A stretch of DNA of 37,419 nt, taken from positions 1 through 37,419 of the forward strand of contig JAIRQQ010000086.1 of the NCBI GenBank assembly GCA_031256395.1, given 5' to 3'. Positions 3,103-27,903 of this stretch are shown piece after piece. The notes under the pieces were generated by a model. It searched no databases. It had not been told where the DNA came from and worked only from the letters and a program-made list of their open reading frames with translations. The DNA comes from Nitrososphaerota archaeon (lineage in GTDB: Archaea; Thermoproteota; Bathyarchaeia; Bathyarchaeales; Bathycorpusculaceae). A program made the translations under genes and the position numbers. Numbering within the stretch: the stretch's first letter is position 1; every line of letters starts with the position of its first letter.

Positions 3103-4518
3103 TTAGCGGTGGAATGCTGACATAGCGCGCCATAGATTATAGTTTACAGCAGTACGTGTCATTATTTTGCTGTAAATGTTACCTTGAAGATAACCTTTCT
3201 TGGCTTGACGCATGATATAGTTTATGGAGTAGAATTTATTGTAGAATTGCTTGCGCATTTGAGCAATTTCTTTAGCCGGTAGATTGGGATCTTCAAAGAT
3301 AGCATTCATAGTACTATATGTTTTCCAATCATCTGACATCTTCCAGCCATTTTTCTCAACAAGTTCTCTTAGTTGCGTGCCCGGAAAAGGCGTAGCATGA
3401 CAGAGCCAAGCATCATCAGGTTCAGTTTTGCGCACAAAATCCAGCGTTTCTTGGAGAGTCTGTTTAGTTTCCCCAGGATAGCCTATGATAACTGAGACAG
3501 TGACAAACATGCCTGCATCTTTGGCCCACTTTATGGCATTGTGACATTGCTGATTGGTAACACCATGTTTTAAGGTCTGACGCATTTGTTCACATCCCGA
3601 TTCTATGCCAAACATGACTTCGTCACAGTGGGCTTTGGCCATCTTTTGCAAGAGTTCTTTGGTGACGGTGTCGGCTCGGGTGCCGCATCCCCATCGCAGA
3701 TTAATTTTGCGCTCAATCATACCATCACAGATGTCAGCGGCTCTTTTTTTATCAAAAGTCAAAGTGTCATCTTGAAATGCTATACCCTCAGCGCCGTATT
3801 CACTTTGTAGCCACTGCAACTCATCAAGTACGTTTTGGGGGCTTCGCGCGCGGAATTGTTGGCCAAACATTTGTGATGCAACACAGAAGGGGCACTTGTA
3901 GGGGCAACCACGGCTGGTTATAACTGAGAGTAGTTTTTGACCCTGAACCCAATATTTCTCAATGGGTACATATTTGTAGGCTGGCCGGGGGAGACTGTCG
4001 AGGTTTTGAATGGGGGGTCGGTTAGGCGTTTGGATGATTTCTTGGCCTTTACGAAAAGATATGCCCTTTATATCGTTTAGCGGTTTGTTTGTTTGGGATT
4101 GGTTTGCCAGTTCAAGAAGCGTTTCTTCGCCCTCGCCTCGAACAATTAGATCTATGGATTTTTCTGTTGCTAGAATATCTCTATCTTGAAATGTGGCATG
4201 GGGTCCGCCTAGTATAATTTGAGCATTTGGACAGGCCTGTTTTGCGGTTTGTGCGGTTTGAAAAGCGGCTTCTGCTATAGGTGTCATGGAGCCTATGCCA
4301 ATTATTGCCGGCTCAAAGGATGTCAGCTCGGTTTGGAGTTTGGTGTAGTCATAGCGATTCACTGGACAGTCGATGATTTTAACCTCAAAATTATTTTGGT
4401 CTAAAACTGCTGCCATATAGGCTAGTCCCAGCGGCGGGAAGAGGGGGTGGTGTCCGATGTCGGTGAGAAGTGGAGGTGTGATGAGAGCTATTTTCTTGTT
4501 GGGCATCATCATGTTCAC
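3103..4518 (-). CDS. B12-binding-type radical SAM protein
   Basis: 471 aa; N-terminal Rossmann-like region with GGPHATF and EGEETLLEL; radical SAM motif SRGCPYKCPFC. Confidence 0.85.
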   Translation of the reverse strand: MNMMMPNKKIALITPPLLTDIGHHPLFPPLGLAYMAAVLDQNNFEVKIIDCPVNRYDYTKLQTELTSFEPAIIGIGSMTPIAEAAFQTAQTAKQACPNAQIILGGPHATFQDRDILATEKSIDLIVRGEGEETLLELANQSQTNKPLNDIKGISFRKGQEIIQTPNRPPIQNLDSLPRPAYKYVPIEKYWVQGQKLLSVITSRGCPYKCPFCVASQMFGQQFRARSPQNVLDELQWLQSEYGAEGIAFQDDTLTFDKKRAADICDGMIERKINLRWGCGTRADTVTKELLQKMAKAHCDEVMFGIESGCEQMRQTLKHGVTNQQCHNAIKWAKDAGMFVTVSVIIGYPGETKQTLQETLDFVRKTEPDDAWLCHATPFPGTQLRELVEKNGWKMSDDWKTYSTMNAIFEDPNLPAKEIAQMRKQFYNKFYSINYIMRQAKKGYLQGNIYSKIMTRTAVNYNLWRAMSAFHR

Positions 4519-7062: not shown

Positions 7063-8448
7063 ATGAAACCCCACATAACCCTAGTTAACCCTGCCGCACC
7101 GGTTGGTGCTGTTATGCACTGGCCCTTTGCGCTTCTGGGTTTAGGATACCTCGCCGCAGTCCTAGAAAAAAACGGCTATAAAGTCGATGTCATTGACTGC
7201 CAAGTCGAAAAACTCTCCATAGAGCAATTTACCCAAGAAATCCAAAAACGCCAACCCAACATAGTAGGCATAACCTCCTCCACCCTCACCTACAAATCCG
7301 GCCTAAACCTCATCAAGGCCACAAAACAGGCCCTGCCAAATTGCACAACCCTTGCCGGCGGACCCCATGTAACATTTTGGGACGACCACGCCCTAGAAGA
7401 ATGCCCCGAACTTGACATAGTTATCCGAAGAGAAGGCGAAGCCACCATTCTTGAATTGGTGCAACACCTCGAAGCCAACAAACCCTGCGATGACGTCTTA
7501 GGCCTCACCTATAGAAAAAACAACCAAATTGTTCGCACCCCCGATCGACCCTACATCGAAGATCTCGACTCTCTACCCTTCCCTGCACGCCATCTATGGC
7601 CCATGGAAAAATTCAAAGAATATGAAGATGTCCTCTACCTATCCATGAGCCGCGGTTGCGTGTACTGGTGCGAATTCTGTTGCACCGTGCGCATGCACGG
7701 CCGAGAATACCGCATGCGAAGCGCCCAAAACGTAGTTAACGAACTAGAATACCTCTACAAAACCTACGGCAAAACCAAATTCACCTTCTGCGACGACGCC
7801 TTCACAGTCGACAAAGACCTCGTAGAGGAACTTTGCAACGAAATCATAAAACGCAACCTAAAAATCGAGTGGAACTGCGGCAGCCGCGTCGACATGGTCA
7901 CCAAAGAACTACTCATAAAAATGAGAGAAGCCGGATGCATCTCATTTTGGTGCGGCATCGAATCAGGCACCCAACAAGTCCTTGACGCCATGAAAAAAGG
8001 CATCACCCCAGAATTAACCGAAAAAGTCATGGGCTGGGTCCGCGAAGCCGGCATGAAACCCGTCCCCAACGTTATCCTAGGCTTCCCCGGCGAAACCAAA
8101 AAAAGCGCCTGGAAAACCATCAAATTCGTCGAAAAAATCGCCCCCGACGCAGTAGGATTCTACAACGTCGCAACCCCCTTCCCCGGCACACCCCTCTACG
8201 ACCAAGTTATTGCCAATGGCTGGTTGCGCGTCACCGACTTTGACAAATACGACACCACCCGCCCCATCTTTGAAACCCCCCAACTAAGCATGAAAGAACT
8301 CGGAAAACTCCGCGAAAGCGCATTCCACCACTACTACCTAAGACGCGCCTACTTCATGGACAAACGCCGCCGCTTCAAACTCTACACAGCCATAACCGTA
8401 GGTCTCCACCTAGCCGCCAACATTAAACTCAAACTCAGAAGAAACTAA
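7063..8448 (+). CDS. B12-binding-type radical SAM protein
   Basis: 461 aa; GGPHVTF, SRGCVYWCEFC, GFPGETKKSAWKT, TPFPGTPLY. Confidence 0.85.
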   Translation: MKPHITLVNPAAPVGAVMHWPFALLGLGYLAAVLEKNGYKVDVIDCQVEKLSIEQFTQEIQKRQPNIVGITSSTLTYKSGLNLIKATKQALPNCTTLAGGPHVTFWDDHALEECPELDIVIRREGEATILELVQHLEANKPCDDVLGLTYRKNNQIVRTPDRPYIEDLDSLPFPARHLWPMEKFKEYEDVLYLSMSRGCVYWCEFCCTVRMHGREYRMRSAQNVVNELEYLYKTYGKTKFTFCDDAFTVDKDLVEELCNEIIKRNLKIEWNCGSRVDMVTKELLIKMREAGCISFWCGIESGTQQVLDAMKKGITPELTEKVMGWVREAGMKPVPNVILGFPGETKKSAWKTIKFVEKIAPDAVGFYNVATPFPGTPLYDQVIANGWLRVTDFDKYDTTRPIFETPQLSMKELGKLRESAFHHYYLRRAYFMDKRRRFKLYTAITVGLHLAANIKLKLRRN

Positions 8449-9206: not shown

Positions 9207-10649
9207 TTATTTTCCACGTAGCATTCGTATGGTTCTTTGGGGATTGCGTAGAGCAGTGAGGAGTTTTTTGTAGGTTAGGGTGCGGTTTATGGCGTTGGCT
9301 CTCATGCATAGCTCCATTAAATCTTGCGCAGTCCACTCTTTGGTTTCAATCAGTGGTTCTGTGGCGGCTAGGGCATAGTCACAAAAGTCTTCGCGCAAAT
9401 ATCCTCCCGCTTTTGTTTGTTCATAGAATTCGGTGCCATAAACCGGCATAGCAATACTGAAGATAAAGCTCTCTGCACCCAACTCTTTGAGCTTGTAGGC
9501 ATATTGAATAGTTTGCTCTATATCGGCTTTAGTCTCCCCGATTAATCCCATAACAAAAAAGACACCCACTTTTATTCCCACTTTTTTACAGGCGACAACG
9601 GCGGCTTCAACCTTTTTTAGATCCAGATTTTTCTTAGCAACCTCAGAGACGATGCGTTGGACGCCTGATTCGGGGGCCACACGGATTTTTTTACACCCCG
9701 CCCGCTTCATCTTGCGCAACAAATCCTCACTTAGCGTATCCGCACGAACACCATTTGGAGTAAACCACTCAAAGCGCAGGTTACGCTCAACAATTAGATC
9801 ACATATGGCGGCCATACGCTTGGGATCCCAGGTCAGATTATCATCGGCAAAGTCTATCTGTTTGATGTTGTAGGTTTTGATGATATGCTCCAGTTCATCG
9901 ACCACGTTTTTGGGACTTCGCGCGCGCCATTTTTTACCCCACACAATAGCATGAGTGCAAAAAACACAGCTAAAGGGACAACCACGGCTAGTGATGACTA
10001 TGGTATTGGGTTGCGTGATTTCTCCCCGCAGAGGATTTTCCTTAACCGCATCAGCATAGATCTGCATCGGCAAGAGATGACGCGCCGGCATAGGCAAAGT
10101 ATCTAAATCCTCAATAAACGCGCGCTTGGAGTTTAGCTGTATGACCCCCTCTTTTCTATAACCCAACCCATCAATACCCTCCAAATCAGTTTTTTTCTCC
10201 AGAGCCTCAACCAACTCTTTTATGGTGATTTCGGGTTCGCCGACTACCACAAAATCTGCTTCACTGTCCTCTAAACACTCCTTTGGACGAGCAGAGGAAT
10301 GTAGCCCAAATAGCACGACGGTGATGGTTTTATCTATATTTTTTGTGAGGGTAACAACTTCATAGGCAGTCTTAGACCAGCCTGAGAAAGGAATCTCTAC
10401 AATAACCACATCGGGCTTGAAATCTCGAATGCGCCCAGCAATTGTTTCGGGGCTCAACCCTACCCGGTATTTGGTTGCATCCAACTCAAGCAAATTATTC
10501 CACCCCTCAGTGGGTGCATCAATGATGCTGACTTGATGATTACTCTCAAGCACCGCTGCCACCGATACCATAACTATGGGTGGAAAAACGTTGGGTTTAC
10601 CCCAAACCTTGGGCTGAATCCGCGGAGGATTAATTAAACAAACACGCAT
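9207..10649 (-). CDS. B12-binding-type radical SAM protein (likely start at internal MRVCLINPPR)
   Basis: ORF 9207..10679; SRGCPFSCVFC motif; conserved family N-terminus RVCLINPPRIQP suggests Met near 10649. Confidence 0.82.
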   Translation of the reverse strand: MRVCLINPPRIQPKVWGKPNVFPPIVMVSVAAVLESNHQVSIIDAPTEGWNNLLELDATKYRVGLSPETIAGRIRDFKPDVVIVEIPFSGWSKTAYEVVTLTKNIDKTITVVLFGLHSSARPKECLEDSEADFVVVGEPEITIKELVEALEKKTDLEGIDGLGYRKEGVIQLNSKRAFIEDLDTLPMPARHLLPMQIYADAVKENPLRGEITQPNTIVITSRGCPFSCVFCTHAIVWGKKWRARSPKNVVDELEHIIKTYNIKQIDFADDNLTWDPKRMAAICDLIVERNLRFEWFTPNGVRADTLSEDLLRKMKRAGCKKIRVAPESGVQRIVSEVAKKNLDLKKVEAAVVACKKVGIKVGVFFVMGLIGETKADIEQTIQYAYKLKELGAESFIFSIAMPVYGTEFYEQTKAGGYLREDFCDYALAATEPLIETKEWTAQDLMELCMRANAINRTLTYKKLLTALRNPQRTIRMLRGK

Positions 10650-10697
10650 CGAGGTGCCTTCAATACAGCCATATCGCACATTGATTTAATGTTTACC

Positions 10698-20023: not shown

Positions 20024-21499
20024 TTAGGTTTGTTGGTCTTGCTCTGAGGTGCTGTAGCCGCCTTTGCTTTTTTTGGGGGTGCGGAGTTTGCTGAGTTTTT
20101 TAAATCCCCATCGGAGCGTTTTATTGTTCCATATTCGGTGATTGAGTGCGGCGCGGGCCATGATTTGGCTATAAAAGTCCCTCTTTACCTTTTTACGTAG
20201 AAAATAGCTGTAGGAGAAATAGTTGTCAAAGAATTCTTTTTTGACTTCTTCTAACTTCTCAAGGGGCAACAGGGTGTTTTTGAAGATTTGGGTTTCTTCA
20301 CGGTATTGATTCCAGTTGGCATCCACTTCTAATCCAAGTTCTTTTATAAAATAGGCTAATTCGGTACCTGGGTAGGGAACTGCTTCACACATATAGACAT
20401 AGTCGGGTTTGGTTTTGTAGAGAAACTCGATGGTCTGCTCAAGCATCTCGGGTGTTTCGGTGGGATAGCCAATAACAAGCGAAACGGCAACAGAGATGCC
20501 TGCTTCTTTGGCCCACTGGATGGCTTGGGCGTTTAGTTCTACGGTGGTGCCTTTACGCATGAGTTTGAGCATTTCTTGGCTGCCTGATTCGACGCCGAAG
20601 TGGATTAGTTGACAGTTTGGGGCTTTGAGCTTTGCCAAAAGCTCCCTAGAGACGCGGTCCACTCGGGTGCGGCAATCCCAGGGCAGGTTGATTTTGCGTT
20701 TTTGCATCTCATCACAAATCGCATAGGCACGCTGTAAATCGTAGGTGAAGGTGTCATCATAGAATGCAAACGCCCCTGCACCAAACTCGTCTCGCAGCCA
20801 TTCCAACTCATCCACGACTTTTGCGGGGCTTCTTCCTCTAAAATTGTGGCCACACATCTTGGAGGCTAAACAAAAGGTGCATGCGCTAGGACAGCCACGG
20901 CTAGTTATTATGGGCATATAATTGACGCCAAAGAGCTTGTACATATTGGTGTCAAAGTGATGATGTGCGGGATGGGGCAAATTATCAATGTCAGGCAGAA
21001 AGGCGCGGTCGGTGGTGCTAAAGGTTTGATTATTGCTCCTATAGGTAATACCCTGAATGGCACTAAGACCAAACATCATCCCCTGCTCAGAGACAAACCG
21101 CGCTAATTCCAGCACGGTCTGTTCCCCCTCACCACGCACCACAACATCTAGATCAGGACTATCAGAGAGGGCTTGTTGATCAAGTACACTAACATGTGGA
21201 CCACCCATAAGCGTGAGCGCCTTGGGCACCGCCGCCTTGGCAGACTTTAAAACCTCAAGAGCCGGCAAATAAGTAACCGTAGCCGAGGTAACCCCTACAA
21301 TATCAGGATTTAGACTGCGAAACTTTTCCTCCAAAGACTGCGGAGTATATTTTTTGGTTTGACAATCCACCACATCAACAGAATAGCCCTCTTTTTCAAG
21401 AACTGCTGCTAAATAACCAATACCCAAAGGCAAAAAAACCGATTGCGCCGCTTCAGACGGGTAAGGCGGATTAACCAGAGCCACACGAGCCTTCAACAA
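20024..21499 (-). CDS. B12-binding-type radical SAM protein
   Basis: 491 aa; GGPHVSV, SRGCPSACTFC, GYPTETPEMLEQT, PYPGTELA. Confidence 0.85.
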   Translation of the reverse strand: MLKARVALVNPPYPSEAAQSVFLPLGIGYLAAVLEKEGYSVDVVDCQTKKYTPQSLEEKFRSLNPDIVGVTSATVTYLPALEVLKSAKAAVPKALTLMGGPHVSVLDQQALSDSPDLDVVVRGEGEQTVLELARFVSEQGMMFGLSAIQGITYRSNNQTFSTTDRAFLPDIDNLPHPAHHHFDTNMYKLFGVNYMPIITSRGCPSACTFCLASKMCGHNFRGRSPAKVVDELEWLRDEFGAGAFAFYDDTFTYDLQRAYAICDEMQKRKINLPWDCRTRVDRVSRELLAKLKAPNCQLIHFGVESGSQEMLKLMRKGTTVELNAQAIQWAKEAGISVAVSLVIGYPTETPEMLEQTIEFLYKTKPDYVYMCEAVPYPGTELAYFIKELGLEVDANWNQYREETQIFKNTLLPLEKLEEVKKEFFDNYFSYSYFLRKKVKRDFYSQIMARAALNHRIWNNKTLRWGFKKLSKLRTPKKSKGGYSTSEQDQQT

Positions 21500-21622: not shown

Positions 21623-23176
21623 ATGGTGAGTCCTATGCCAGCAACTCTAGCAATCCTTAACGCAAACATACACACCCAAAACCCCAACCAACCCCACGCC
21701 CAAGCCCTGGCCATCCAAAACAACCACATCCAAAAAGTCGGAACCAACCAAGACATCACCCCCCTAATTGATGAAACCACACTAATTTTAGATCTCAAAG
21801 GCAAAACCATTCTCCCCGGCCTAATCGACACCCATATCCACCTCGCCGACTACGGCCGATGCCTCCTCTGGCTTGATCTCACCAACACAAAATCCATAGA
21901 AGAACTTCAAGACCTTCTCAAACAAAAAATTACCAACACACCCAAAAACAGCTGGATTATCGGACAAGGCTGGAACGAAACCCGTCTCCAAGAACAACGC
22001 ATGCCCACCGCCGCAGATTTGGATCTGGTTAGTCCAAACAACCCCGTTATCCTCTACCGCGAAGCCGCCATGCTCTGCATTGCCAACACCCAAGCCCAAA
22101 ACCACGCCAACATAACCCCCGCCACCCCAAACCCCCAAGGCGGAATCATCGAAAAAACCCCCCAAGGCCAACCAACCGGCATCTTTCGCGACACCGCCAC
22201 CACCCTAATCTGGCAAGCAGTTTCCGAACCCACCCAAACCGAACTACTCACCGCCACAGCACATGCCTGCCAAAAAGCCTTCCAAGCCGGCATAACCAGC
22301 CTCCACTGGCTCATACTAAACGAAACCGAACTCACCCTAATCCAAAAACTCTACGAACAAAACCAACTGCTCTTTAGAGTAAACGTAATCGTCCCCGAAA
22401 CCCTCCTAGAAAAAACAATTCAAATCCAATCAAAAAATCTCGAGGTGTTGCAAGTTAGCGGCGCCTTTATTGTGGCTGATGGTTACCTAGACTCCAAAGA
22501 AGCCGCCCTAAACGAGCCCTACAGCGATGACCCCACAAACACCGGTAAACTTTTGCTCTCCAAAGAGGCACTGTCAGCTTCGATTACGCGGGCGCTATCA
22601 TTTGGCGTTCAACCCGTTATCCATGCAATGGGCGATCGTGCCATAGATTTGGTTTTATCAGTAATTGAGCAGACAAAAAGCAAGCAACGCATCCGAATCG
22701 AGCAAGCCGCAATCCTCAACCCCGCACTTCTTGAACGGATAAAAAAACAGAATGTGGCCATAACAATTCAACCCAAAGTCATAACAACCGAATTCACAGT
22801 CTGGTCCGCCGATCAGCGGCTCGGCCCACGCGCCAAGTGGCTCCACCCCCTAAAAACTCTCCTAGATGCAGGTGTAGTGGTTGCCGCCGGCTCAGATTGC
22901 CCCATGGAACCTCTAAACCCCCTGCTGGGTATCCAAGAACTAATGTCACATCCCAAACCCGAACAACGCCTAAGCCTAAATGAAGCCATCAACCTATACA
23001 CCCTAAACGCCGCACGATGCGCAGACCAAGAAACCACCAAAGGCTCAATCCAAGAAGGCAAACTAGCAGATCTCATCATCCTAACCACCGACCCCGCAAC
23101 TGTCGAACCACACAAAATAAACACCCTAACCATAGACTTTGTCATACTAAACGGCCAAATTCTAGTCATAACCTAA
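21623..23176 (+). CDS. Amidohydrolase family 3 (YtcJ-like)
   Basis: 517 aa; LPGLIDTHIHLADYGR, GQGWNETR, IHAMGDRAIDLVL, GSDCPMEPLNPL, GKLADLIIL. Confidence 0.85.
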   Translation: MVSPMPATLAILNANIHTQNPNQPHAQALAIQNNHIQKVGTNQDITPLIDETTLILDLKGKTILPGLIDTHIHLADYGRCLLWLDLTNTKSIEELQDLLKQKITNTPKNSWIIGQGWNETRLQEQRMPTAADLDLVSPNNPVILYREAAMLCIANTQAQNHANITPATPNPQGGIIEKTPQGQPTGIFRDTATTLIWQAVSEPTQTELLTATAHACQKAFQAGITSLHWLILNETELTLIQKLYEQNQLLFRVNVIVPETLLEKTIQIQSKNLEVLQVSGAFIVADGYLDSKEAALNEPYSDDPTNTGKLLLSKEALSASITRALSFGVQPVIHAMGDRAIDLVLSVIEQTKSKQRIRIEQAAILNPALLERIKKQNVAITIQPKVITTEFTVWSADQRLGPRAKWLHPLKTLLDAGVVVAAGSDCPMEPLNPLLGIQELMSHPKPEQRLSLNEAINLYTLNAARCADQETTKGSIQEGKLADLIILTTDPATVEPHKINTLTIDFVILNGQILVIT

Positions 23177-23200
23177 AATTCTACTGGATTTAAAGCAGTG

Positions 23201-23965
23201 CTAAAAATGGTAAAAGGCGTATAGTGGATCACTAATTTCTATGTGTATTTTACGTTCCCAAAGTCCATTTTTTTGTTTAATTATTCCGTAGTCTCTTGTA
23301 GCAAAAACAGCTTGTTCGTTTTTTAGTGCTTGATATTGGTGTACACAGGCTACATGTAAGCTGTCGGGCGCATGAATACCGTATCCCTCAGCTATTCTTG
23401 CAATTTGTTTAACTCTTTCATCAACTGCAATAACTTTTGTTTTTATATGTCCTTTTTCAAACTCTACTAGATTATCACAAACATCTGCAATAGTGCTGAT
23501 ATTTAATAGCACGGTTTTAGTTAGCTCAAGCAGAAAGCCATCAATCGTTATGGTGAGACCTTTATCTAATTTGTCAGCAATGAACTGTATTGACCATTGC
23601 TCAACCTCCATTAGCGGTCCCGTAAGACTTCCTTGGCGCTTTGCCATTACATGATATTCAGAGAATAAATCCTCAAGGGCCTTAACATCAGAGAAATCTA
23701 TGGGTGCATCTGAGGGAATTTTTCGTTTATCTCTTGATTCAACCAAAGCGGTATAGACCGTTTCCCTTATAGCGGTACCCAAAAAATCAGTTGTTCTCTG
23801 GACTTTACTCTTCACTTCATTTTTTACAGAATCAGAAATATAACAGGGGATTTTGTTGAGATGCGCATCATTTTTTAATTTAGCTAGTCTCGGATTATTT
23901 TCGTTAAGAATGTCTGATAATACGAGATTTGCGTCGAGGAAAAAGCATCTTGCTTTTTGAACCAA
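23201..23965 (-). CDS. PIN-domain-like putative nuclease
   Basis: 254 aa; N-terminal FFLDANLVLSDI, C-terminal HAPDSLHVACVHQ and FATRDYGI acidic positions typical of the PIN fold; TTG start with GGAGG SD located inside the upstream gene. Confidence 0.6.
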   Translation of the reverse strand: MVQKARCFFLDANLVLSDILNENNPRLAKLKNDAHLNKIPCYISDSVKNEVKSKVQRTTDFLGTAIRETVYTALVESRDKRKIPSDAPIDFSDVKALEDLFSEYHVMAKRQGSLTGPLMEVEQWSIQFIADKLDKGLTITIDGFLLELTKTVLLNISTIADVCDNLVEFEKGHIKTKVIAVDERVKQIARIAEGYGIHAPDSLHVACVHQYQALKNEQAVFATRDYGIIKQKNGLWERKIHIEISDPLYAFYHF

Positions 23966-23968
23966 TAG

Positions 23969-24886
23969 CTATGAGCCTCCATTTAAGGTAGCAGAAGACA
24001 TGCCTAAAAGATTACCAATCATGTTAACTGTTGAATTCGGTGTATTGCTTATTTTACATAAAACCTCTGTGTCGTCATTTAGTAACATTAACCTTATTTC
24101 ATGTAATTTTGTATTAAATTCTTGATTTAACTGTTCAAATTCGGATATTTCAATTTTTTTAATATCCAAAAACTTTGGCCAATTCAAATCGCCCGTTGTG
24201 TCTGCATTCCAAATGATGACATATCTCCGTAGCCGTGTGCAAGCATAGGCGCATTCATCAAATTTGTTAATTATTGGGCCTAATTCACTTTGCATATTTT
24301 TTATAATTTTGGTAAACATCTTCGAATTTCTCGAATATTTAGCCCTATATTCGTATATTCTTGTAGTATTCTGAATAAATTTCAAGAAATCATAGCATGT
24401 ATTGTCAAAACGTGTAAGCTGGTTATAAAACGTTAAAGGTAAATTAGACATTAGAAATCTCTTTGCATCCAACGCTAATCGATTGTCCCTTTCTTTTTCA
24501 AACCGTTGTTTCATAAAAGAAACAAATGTGTAAAAAGGCCTGTTTCTGTCTAAGCGTTTTGTATTTTCTATTTCTTGTTGTAATGCTTTGTCCTCTTCAA
24601 ACAGTTTAACACTTCTATCAGTGAATGCCTTAACTAAATCTGAAACATTGAACCTCTCAGGAATCGATATAGAGTTAAAAATCATATTGTTATCTGCCGT
24701 GACTAATTCTTCAAAAGTACTCACAGGTTTAGTGGGTTCCAGTTTTGTTTTAGTCACCTTGCATCTAACATTGCCAAATTTTACGTCTTCCGTAATTTCC
24801 ACAGGTTTTAGGTCTAGTAAGCCAAAACGCAAACTATTTTGCGGATAACTGAAAACCTGAGATGTACCAAGACTCAAAACAAACAC
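23969..24886 (-). CDS. Uncharacterised alpha-helical/charged protein coupled to the PIN gene
   Basis: 305 aa ORF, no family recognised; GTG start; its 3' end encodes the SD of the downstream gene. Confidence 0.6.
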   Translation of the reverse strand: MFVLSLGTSQVFSYPQNSLRFGLLDLKPVEITEDVKFGNVRCKVTKTKLEPTKPVSTFEELVTADNNMIFNSISIPERFNVSDLVKAFTDRSVKLFEEDKALQQEIENTKRLDRNRPFYTFVSFMKQRFEKERDNRLALDAKRFLMSNLPLTFYNQLTRFDNTCYDFLKFIQNTTRIYEYRAKYSRNSKMFTKIIKNMQSELGPIINKFDECAYACTRLRRYVIIWNADTTGDLNWPKFLDIKKIEISEFEQLNQEFNTKLHEIRLMLLNDDTEVLCKISNTPNSTVNMIGNLLGMSSATLNGGS

Positions 24887-25025
24887 CTTGTGGAATCTGG
24901 CACTAATGTCACACTTAACCCTCTTGATACGCTCACTATATTATTAACTATTTTAAAGTATAAAATCAAATATATAAGTGGCCATCGACGCTACATAAAC
25001 CCATAAAGGCCTATCTCGTCAGTTG

Positions 25026-25221
25026 TTAAAGATTTGTAAGAAAATGTGATATCCTATTTTGGGGTGTGTTGTGTTTCCAGTCACTTGCTCTTTTTCTCTC
25101 CAGATTGAACTGAGCAAATTCCTCAGCACTAACTTTATCTCTGCTCATAACGTCTATCGCCACAAACGTGCATTCTTTAACTCCTATCAGCCATCGTATT
25201 AGATATAACATAAGGTGTCAT
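25026..25221 (-). pseudogene. Probable small-gene remnant with frameshift near its 5' end
   Basis: Strong SD (AGGAGGT, minus strand, 25228-25234) 6 nt before ATG at 25219-25221, which opens only a 14-codon frame. The 61-aa ORF is in a different frame 10 nt downstream. Confidence 0.35.
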
Positions 25222-25281
25222 AGGTGAACCTCCTATTGAAATGGCTTTAATTTAAAGTTCTTTCAAGAGTTGAGCTTGTAA

Positions 25282-25334
25282 CCAAACGGTGCACGAATTT
25301 GAAAAGAGAAACAGTATCCCGTTTCGCCGTTTGG
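25282..25334. repeat. Inverted repeat CCAAACGG ... CCGTTTGG
   Basis: Perfect 8-bp arms separated by 37 nt, with additional inner CGAA/TTCG pairing. Confidence 0.4.
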
Positions 25335-25421
25335 AAACAGCATTTTCTACTGCGTTAAAAGGTGTTGTACTGAAAAATACTGCAAGGATAACTGCCTCTG
25401 AGGTGGTCGGGGTGTGTTGGT

Positions 25422-26516
25422 TTATTCTCTGGGTTCCTGCTTAGCTTTCTCTAACTGTTTTTCTATGGGTAGGTTGTAGGGGCATTTGGGTGTGCATTGT
25501 CCGCAGTGTTCACATTTCTCGGCTTTGATTTCGAGACCGTTGTAGCGTTTTTTGGCCCAGTTTTTCAATCCATATATGTCCTGTAGCATCTGAAAACGCA
25601 GTATTGCGGGGATGTTTATGTTGTTTGGGCAGGGCATACACAAGCCGCAGTCGCGGCAGTAATAGTTGCCTAATTCAAAGCTAAACTGTTGCTTCTTCTC
25701 AGGTGTTAGACTGTGGTATTGGTTTGCGGCGTTTGCGGCGGTTTCCACCTCTGAGATACTTTTAAGCCCTGCAATAACCCCTGAGACATCTTGGGCAAGC
25801 ACATACTGCAGTGCACTGGCCACTTGTTCCTCGGCGGTTTGGCCCAATAGTGCTTTGAGTTCCTCTTCTTCTGAGATGAGCGAGAGTGAGGGTTGGTAGA
25901 GACAAGTTATCAAGTTGGAGGTTTTCACTGAGAGCGGCTTCATGATAACCACTCCTACATCATGTGCTTTTGCAGTGGGAATGAGCTCCTCAAGTGCTTG
26001 CGGTGTCACCACGTTTAGTGGTACCAAAACGGTGTCAAATTCGCCTGTTGTTATTGCTTTTGTGAGTACCCGCGGTTTATGCCCGGTGATTCCGATAAAT
26101 TTGGTTTGTCCTTCGCGCTGAGCTTGCTTGCAGGTTTGCAACACGCCATCTTCGCTCATGGCTTTGTTGAGTGTTTTTTCATCATCAATGCCATGGAGTT
26201 GCAAAATATCCACATAATCAGTTTGCAGATTTTTGAGGCTCACTTCAAAGTCTTGGAGCGATTCGCGTTTGGTTCGATTGCCTGTTTTGGTAGCAATTAT
26301 ACATTGATTTCTTTTTTTGTTTTGGAGTGCTTCACCGATTTTTTCTTCGCTATCCCCATCCCAGCGGGCGGTATCAAAATAATTAAACCCCAACTCAAAG
26401 GCATGTTGCACAACCTCGACTGCCTGAGGTTTGGGTAGTTCGGCTATCCAAGTGCCGCCAAAGCCTACTTGGGACATTCTTAGATTAGTTCTGCCCAGCC
26501 GTCGCCTATCCATCAA
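25422..26516 (-). CDS. Aldo/keto reductase with C-terminal 4Fe-4S ferredoxin domain
   Basis: 364 aa; RRLGRTNLRMSQVGFGGTWI, FDTARWDGDSEEKIGEAL, CRDCGLCMPCPNNINIP, CEHCGQCTPKCPYNLPI. Confidence 0.9.
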   Translation of the reverse strand: MMDRRRLGRTNLRMSQVGFGGTWIAELPKPQAVEVVQHAFELGFNYFDTARWDGDSEEKIGEALQNKKRNQCIIATKTGNRTKRESLQDFEVSLKNLQTDYVDILQLHGIDDEKTLNKAMSEDGVLQTCKQAQREGQTKFIGITGHKPRVLTKAITTGEFDTVLVPLNVVTPQALEELIPTAKAHDVGVVIMKPLSVKTSNLITCLYQPSLSLISEEEELKALLGQTAEEQVASALQYVLAQDVSGVIAGLKSISEVETAANAANQYHSLTPEKKQQFSFELGNYYCRDCGLCMPCPNNINIPAILRFQMLQDIYGLKNWAKKRYNGLEIKAEKCEHCGQCTPKCPYNLPIEKQLEKAKQEPRE

Positions 26517-26526
26517 ATCACCCTTA

Positions 26527-27903
26527 TTAGGCAGTGCCGTTGGCTTTTTTGGTGCCGTGCAACAATCGATTTTTGGTGAAGGTTAGAATGCCTTCACGTT
26601 TGGCTCGTTTTAGAATCTGTTTGGGCCTCATGTGGAAACTCTTAAAGAAGCGCCATTGTAGTGCTTTGAGTGCTTCATAGTCGTATTGGTCGCTTTTGAC
26701 GCTTAGCAAATACTCGTCGAGTTGGGTATAGTTTTTGTTTTGGAGCAGTTCTTTGTAGATTTTACTATCAGGATAAGCGATAAAGATATTGAACTGACAA
26801 TAATCCGGATCAATTTTTTTAGCGAATTTGAGTGATTTTTCCATATCCTCCAAGGTCTCATCGGGTAATCCAAGCATAAAAGAGCAGGCGGTTTCTATGT
26901 GGTGTTTTTTGCATAGTTTAAAGGCAGTTTCGACTTGTTGGGGGGTGGTATTTCGATTTATACGTTTTAGGATTTTAGGTGAGCCCGATTCCACGCCAAA
27001 CCAGATGACTTTACAGCCTGCCTTGCTCATAAGCTCCAAGAGCTCCTCATCCACCAAATCCACCCGAGTATCACAAACCCACTCTAAATCCAGTTTTTGC
27101 TCAATCATGAGGTTGCAAAGCGTTTTGGTTTTTTCTTTGTTTAGGGTAAAATTATCGTTTATGAAATAGATGCCCTTTGTACCATAGCGGCTCTGTAGAT
27201 CTTGAATTTCGCCTATGACGCGTTTTGGGCTAAAGTTGCGATTGATGTTGCCCCAGAGTTTGCGGGTTTCACAAAACCCACAACTATACACACACCCTCG
27301 GCTAATGCTCATAACATCCGCCGGTTTAGCCTCTAAGAATTCGATGGTGCGATCATACTGCTCAAGGGGCAACAAATGCCTAGCGGGGTAGGGAATCTCA
27401 TCCATATCCTCAATAAATTTAGGTGCATTTACGATGATGCCGCTTGGGGTTCTACATGCCACCCCTGGAATCGATGTTACTTGGTCTAGTTTGTTCTGTG
27501 TTAGGGCGTTTGCTAATTGAGTTATAGCCCGCTCGCCTTCTCCGATAATAGCATAATCAATCTCGTTATGTGCCAAAAGTGTCTCAGGCAAATAAGACGC
27601 ATGCCAGCCACCCACCACCACCACACAATCCGTTTTTGCCTCTTTTATGGCCTGAGCGGTTTCTAGGCAACGCGCAAACGTAGCTGAACCACAAGTAATC
27701 CCCACCATAAACGGTTGGCGCTGTCCAATTATTTGCTTAACTTCTTCAAGAGACTTGTTGGCCAAATAATTATCCAACATCTCAACCGTATAACCCGCCT
27801 TCTCAAGGGCGCCTGCAATATACATCAACCCAATAGGCGGCAAACGTTTCCCATGATACCACGTATCTTTTTCAGGGGGCGCAGTAGTCATAAGCAAAAT
27901 CAA
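26527..27903 (-). CDS. B12-binding-type radical SAM protein
   Basis: 458 aa; GGWHASY, SRGCVYSCGFC, GLPDETLEDMEKS; 10-nt gap to the downstream aldo/keto reductase. Confidence 0.85.
   Translation of the reverse strand: MILLMTTAPPEKDTWYHGKRLPPIGLMYIAGALEKAGYTVEMLDNYLANKSLEEVKQIIGQRQPFMVGITCGSATFARCLETAQAIKEAKTDCVVVVGGWHASYLPETLLAHNEIDYAIIGEGERAITQLANALTQNKLDQVTSIPGVACRTPSGIIVNAPKFIEDMDEIPYPARHLLPLEQYDRTIEFLEAKPADVMSISRGCVYSCGFCETRKLWGNINRNFSPKRVIGEIQDLQSRYGTKGIYFINDNFTLNKEKTKTLCNLMIEQKLDLEWVCDTRVDLVDEELLELMSKAGCKVIWFGVESGSPKILKRINRNTTPQQVETAFKLCKKHHIETACSFMLGLPDETLEDMEKSLKFAKKIDPDYCQFNIFIAYPDSKIYKELLQNKNYTQLDEYLLSVKSDQYDYEALKALQWRFFKSFHMRPKQILKRAKREGILTFTKNRLLHGTKKANGTA

Follow-up and report, generated by a model that had tools for sequence, protein, structure and literature searches.

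A recurrent archaeal gene pair encoding a PIN-like protein and a large orphan partner, a candidate mobile conflict module

VapBC toxin-antitoxin systems consist of two small genes, one encoding a toxin of about 130 aa that targets tRNA or rRNA and the other a DNA-binding antitoxin, whose domain may be of the AbrB, RHH, PHD, HTH or a similar type. Among Pfam families of PIN proteins, PIN_12 (PF16289, which we take to be the family formerly called DUF4935) has, to our knowledge, no partner like the one described below. PIN proteins act also in rRNA maturation and mRNA decay (PMC7180214), while PDC-S70, which is enriched in archaea, is a putative defence candidate that consists of one PIN gene (PMC12988326). 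The MNT-HEPN two-gene modules, which are mobile and abundant in archaea, were first predicted from conserved pairing (PMC2701414). Toxin-antitoxin modules have been predicted before from the combination of traits reported here, namely a fixed pair, an upstream partner, tight spacing, a nuclease-like downstream protein and patchy mobility, and the PIN partners listed in that work are small proteins, mostly DNA-binding (PMC2701414).

The pair analyzed here lies in a window of 37,419 nucleotides (the whole stretch of DNA under study), which forms one end of contig C11 in a host genome of 2.0 Mb and 135 contigs. Its gene content, notably the XPB-type helicase with its neighbour and the CDP-alcohol phosphatidyltransferase-like gene, points to an archaeal host, and the class is probably Bathyarchaeia. 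An upstream gene, gene A, is followed on the minus strand by a gene for a PIN-like protein (Table 1). Re-examination of the sequence confirmed the coordinates, TAG stop, CTA codon, TTG start and common reading frame given in a preliminary description of this locus. On the coding strand the junction reads TGGAGGCTCATAG CTA TTG GTT, with a single codon (CTA) between the two genes. As first reported, gene A contains a GGAGG in its final codons; this motif precedes the TTG by 10 nt. The pair resembles PDC-S70 as a predicted PIN-based defence of archaea, but PDC-S70 is a single gene whereas the pairing here is constant; a scan of eight members against PADLOC-DB, a library that includes other PDC models and possibly that of PDC-S70, gave no match up to E 1. 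With MNT-HEPN it shares the character of a mobile two-gene module of archaea predicted from conserved pairing, although the protein families are unrelated by Pfam scans.

Table 1. Positions of the gene pair and of other features in the window.
Feature	Position	Strand	Basis
Predicted PIN-like nuclease, 254 aa, TTG start	23201..23965	-	ORF; weak PIN_12/TIGR00305 matches; conserved acids D11, E50, E122, D201, D225
Gene A, 305 aa, GTG start, TAG stop	23969..24886	-	ORF; in other genomes its homologue immediately precedes the PIN gene
Junction	23966..23984	-	GGAGG Shine-Dalgarno-like motif in final gene A codons, TAG, CTA, TTG
Accessory slot holding the pair	23177..25413	.	Flank DNA identity with G015 stops at these borders
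Amidohydrolase flanking the slot	21623-23176	+	Conserved, convergent with aldo/keto reductase
Aldo/keto reductase flanking the slot	25422-26516	-	Conserved, convergent with amidohydrolase
XPB-type helicase and its neighbour	31206-34746		Gene content as read
CDP-alcohol phosphatidyltransferase-like gene	35432-36094		Gene content as read
B12-binding radical SAM-like proteins	3103-4518, 7063-8448, 9207-10679, 20024-21499, 26527-27903		By eye

The distribution of the pair was assessed with single-protein and then profile searches of overlapping archaeal genome sets, which we estimate to hold roughly 600 distinct genomes. Single-protein searches of 101 relatives, IMG/VR, GTDB contigs, phages and plasmids returned no homologue. 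Among 398 genomes of the phylum, however, both proteins had matches close to each other in G106, and a further match to gene A lay in G389, where a PIN-like gene follows it. A profile of the PIN-like protein found matches in G570, G054, G498, G007, G008, G024 and G031 within the class, and in G421, G335 and G126 within the phylum. Overall, the neighbourhood search that had been proposed for this locus recovered the window pair and 11 further assemblies, giving 12 with an intact pair (G000, G106, G389, G570, G008, G498, G054, G007, G421, G335, G003 and G126), with homologues mostly 12-30% identical. Wherever the DNA ahead of the PIN gene was intact, the adjoining gene on that side was gene A, as confirmed by profile (G126 excepted); the gene A of G007 was spotted by position before the profile detected it. 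In the reciprocal direction, a gene A profile matched 9 of the 257 class genomes, and all nine carry a PIN gene directly downstream. Among them are G024, in which the PIN gene is disrupted, and G003, whose PIN gene had escaped the PIN search but gave E 4.7e-15 when the locus itself was scanned. Gene A likewise adjoins every PIN match in the 257 class genomes except that in G031, a fragment at a contig end. Since reciprocal matches are always paired, there is no solo gene A in the class, and no solo PIN gene apart from this cut copy. Conservation of their homologues across 11-12 loci, mostly with 12-30% identity, shows that both ORFs are real genes. Two side observations came from these searches. 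G003 has undergone a large PIN expansion, with 35 PIN-family matches against 0-6 in six other genomes searched. In G126 a 235-aa gene (L035 7818-8525) overlaps the PIN-like gene by 23 nt and is unmatched by the gene A profile, so that it represents a strongly diverged gene A or else another kind of partner.

Gene order and close spacing are conserved at the 12 intact loci, in agreement with the tight coupling noted at first: gene A is directly upstream of the PIN gene in all of them, with gaps of 3, 4, 11, -16, 13, 11, 11, -1, -8, 4, -23 and 8 nt. The PIN gene of G007 has no ATG, GTG or TTG at the expected place, so its true start, and hence that gap, is uncertain. The preliminary description had also raised a readthrough fusion. 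The frame relation is mixed, and the genes share a frame only in the window, that is at 1 of 12 loci, which is within chance expectation and leaves the readthrough reading without support, and no fused frame came to light. We therefore reject it.

Assignment of the downstream protein to the PIN superfamily is favoured by its conserved acids, while matches of individual proteins fall below curated cut-offs. The window protein reaches 15.8 bits against PIN_12 (E about 0.02; cut-off 32), 14 bits against Pfam PIN (E 0.078; cut-off 23.6) and 15.4 bits against TIGR00305 (E 0.017; cut-off 29.15), and the best homologue, that of G106, reaches 26.1 bits against PIN_12 (E 1.3e-5), still below the cut-off. 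PIN_12 is thus the best Pfam match of this nuclease, differing from it in that the matches are sub-cut-off and confined to the N-terminal half. That this is so in every single protein was counted against the conflict-module reading developed below, though we regard it as a limit of sensitivity rather than a structural defining feature. In a profile comparison with VapC-type proteins of related genomes, the N-terminal part of the PIN-like protein aligned at P 8e-5 (controls: 0.14-0.5 for the reversed full-length profile and 0.4-0.8 for gene A), whereas the C-terminal part alone gave no alignment. Across 11 proteins the columns D11, E122, D225 and P247 are invariant; D201 is present in 10, with E in the other, and E50 in nine. 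Ranked by conservation, D11, E122, D225, P247, F101 and D201 are followed by C41, E50, T223, R67 and others. The active-site acids whose conservation had been in question are thus retained: D11, E50, D201 and D225 would fit the PIN acid pattern (D in strand 1, E, D, D), E122, inside an insert, may join the predicted active site, and together these residues are as expected of a putative metal-dependent nuclease. Judged from these sequence comparisons, the downstream protein is likely PIN-type.

As the preliminary description proposed, gene A belongs to no recognised family: beyond scattered chance-level matches, none was found in Pfam, NCBIfam, PADLOC or PHROGs, nor did any housekeeping family among these match it, and there was no meaningful match in the PDB. 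We discounted several candidates as chance matches. Those to CARF3, Plk4 and Mad3/BUB1 each came from one member only (E 0.009-0.16) and did not recur in homologues, and a match in G162 (E 1.8e-4) spans six stops. PDB profile matches (best E 9e-5, to a circular tendon repeat protein) covered helical stretches and included no PIN protein. The GTG start is backed by homologues with aligned starts. Single-sequence AlphaFold models of gene A (pLDDT 40) and of the PIN-like protein (pLDDT 37) were of low confidence, too poor to be used in a fold search.

These properties bear on whether the pair is a divergent VapBC system, which it resembles as a patchily distributed, mobile two-gene operon with an upstream partner, tight spacing and a PIN-like nuclease with conserved acids. 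However, both proteins are about twice the usual size or more, as anticipated in the preliminary description, the PIN-like protein having 247-306 aa, of which an insert makes up about 100 residues, and its partner 235-315 aa. In addition, no AbrB, RHH, PHD, HTH or similar DNA-binding domain was found in eight gene A proteins (Pfam, up to E 1), and the relation to PIN families is weak or at profile level, with the VapC-type profile joined over the N-terminal part only. We therefore consider a divergent VapBC very improbable.

Several lines of evidence concern inheritance of the pair as a unit. Distances among gene A proteins correlate with those among their PIN partners (Mantel r 0.86, p 1e-4); this value is inflated because four members are closely related, and without these r is 0.63 (p 0.025). 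Within the genus there are separate pair lineages (G000; G007 with G008; G003), and in both gene trees the window pair joins G570, from another family (supports 89/90 and 92/95), the deep branches being long and unresolved. From these comparisons the two genes appear to move together between archaea. Mobile-element or defence genes occur at some loci only, the remaining loci, window included, having ordinary neighbours. In G007 the order is tRNA-Phe, integrase, regulator-like gene, module; in G421 an integrase ends 111 nt upstream of gene A, and an MmeI-N-like gene lies a few kb away; in G498 an integrase-like gene (weak, E 0.002) adjoins the module; and near the G008 copy is a BRO-N/DinD-like gene, PDC-S13 in PADLOC. 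A DndC-like PAPS reductase, an AAA ATPase and a PD-(D/E)XK-like protein lie within 7 kb of the G106 copy (L023 3679-9397), possibly a DNA-modification defence island. The integrases at three of these loci, one beside a tRNA-Phe gene, and the BRO-N gene would suit a pair that maintains or processes integrative elements, in which the PIN-like protein serves as a structure-specific or RNA-processing nuclease and gene A as its cofactor. Several copies, including that of the window, nevertheless have ordinary chromosomal genes on both sides and no integrase nearby, and the phage, plasmid and viral collections IMG/VR, INPHARED and PLSDB yielded no copy of the module; we judge such a role improbable.

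The slot that holds the pair provides a direct view of its turnover. In the congeneric G015, DNA on the two sides of the slot is 90% and 88% identical to that of the window, but in place of the pair there is a different stretch of about 1.48 kb that carries repeat-rich ORFs and is unrelated to the window DNA. G004 has a third cargo, likewise unrelated and about 1.6 kb long. The slot, bounded by the convergent amidohydrolase and aldo/keto reductase genes, is thus a site of turnover, and we note it as a cargo hotspot in three congeneric genomes (window 23177-25413; L060 4750-6227; L061 2676-4293). The AT-rich patch first described here was borne out, with 34.8% GC in the pair against 46.1% in the remaining window; at most other loci the pair is also lower in GC than its surroundings, G106 showing the opposite. 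The pair's spread is patchy: it occurs in 10 of the 257 class genomes and in 6 of the 32 from the genus. An ordinary housekeeping operon for RNA processing might be envisaged from the part that PIN proteins play in rRNA maturation and mRNA decay (PMC7180214), but so sparse a distribution, and nearest relatives that have other DNA in the same slot in place of the pair, lead us to reject it as scarcely credible.

Disrupted copies have affected the PIN gene. In G024 it breaks at two contig ends (L099 1-420, L020 1-160) that carry the same 18-nt inverted terminus next to TA, as would be expected of an IS630/Tc1-type insertion, and its N-terminal part also has frame breaks, while gene A is intact. 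In G031 a C-terminal PIN fragment (L022 1-300) directly adjoins one end of a transposase-like frame of IS630 type (type assigned by eye), and gene A was not found in that genome. Such cut genes fit a costly nuclease, although two cases are too few to establish toxicity and assembly errors are possible. Together with the integrases and the DndC-like gene near one copy, they favour a conflict role.

We propose, with about an even chance of being correct, that the pair is a toxin-antitoxin-like conflict module, distinct from VapBC, that moves horizontally among archaea, with a PIN RNase as putative effector and gene A as its inhibitor. We use 'toxin-antitoxin-like' because gene A is unlike the small, mostly DNA-binding partners of PIN proteins; its size, far above that of typical antitoxins, and its lack of their DNA-binding domain were counted against this reading. 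The downstream gene would encode a metal-dependent PIN-fold ribonuclease, and the upstream gene a large dedicated partner that would bind and restrain it. Gene A would be made first and the PIN-like protein translated by coupling from its end, so that the nuclease would rarely be present without its partner. An invader, or loss of the module, might then upset gene A and free the enzyme, which could cut cellular RNA (tRNA or rRNA, by analogy with VapC) and stop growth or infection.

Alternatively, gene A may be the recognition or activating subunit of a sensor-effector defence complex, responding to viral RNA or protein, with the nuclease active only in the complex. A large, fast-diverging and ever-present gene A is as fitting for a recognition subunit as for an inhibitor, and the DndC-like gene near the G106 copy and the MmeI-N-like gene near the G421 copy point the same way. 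On the other hand, no known sensor domain was found in gene A, and both its place ahead of the PIN gene and the G024 copy, where PIN alone is disrupted, speak slightly more for an antidote; we regard the sensor-effector reading as possible but unlikely. We tentatively suggest that the pair represents a so far undescribed system of archaeal immunity or addiction, one where an enlarged PIN ribonuclease is under the control of a large orphan partner; it would then add a new two-component kind to VapBC and HEPN-MNT. We found no description of this pair in the open-licence literature, though an earlier one, for example as an arCOG pair, is possible. A recurring mobile nuclease-plus-partner pair that is invisible to current family libraries is of a kind overlooked by surveys, and the pair supplies two profiles for mining.

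Elsewhere in the window, five related B12-binding radical SAM-like proteins, recognised by eye, are encoded within 25 kb, an unusual local expansion, and several PQQ/kelch-type repeat proteins (also by eye) are interspersed with them.
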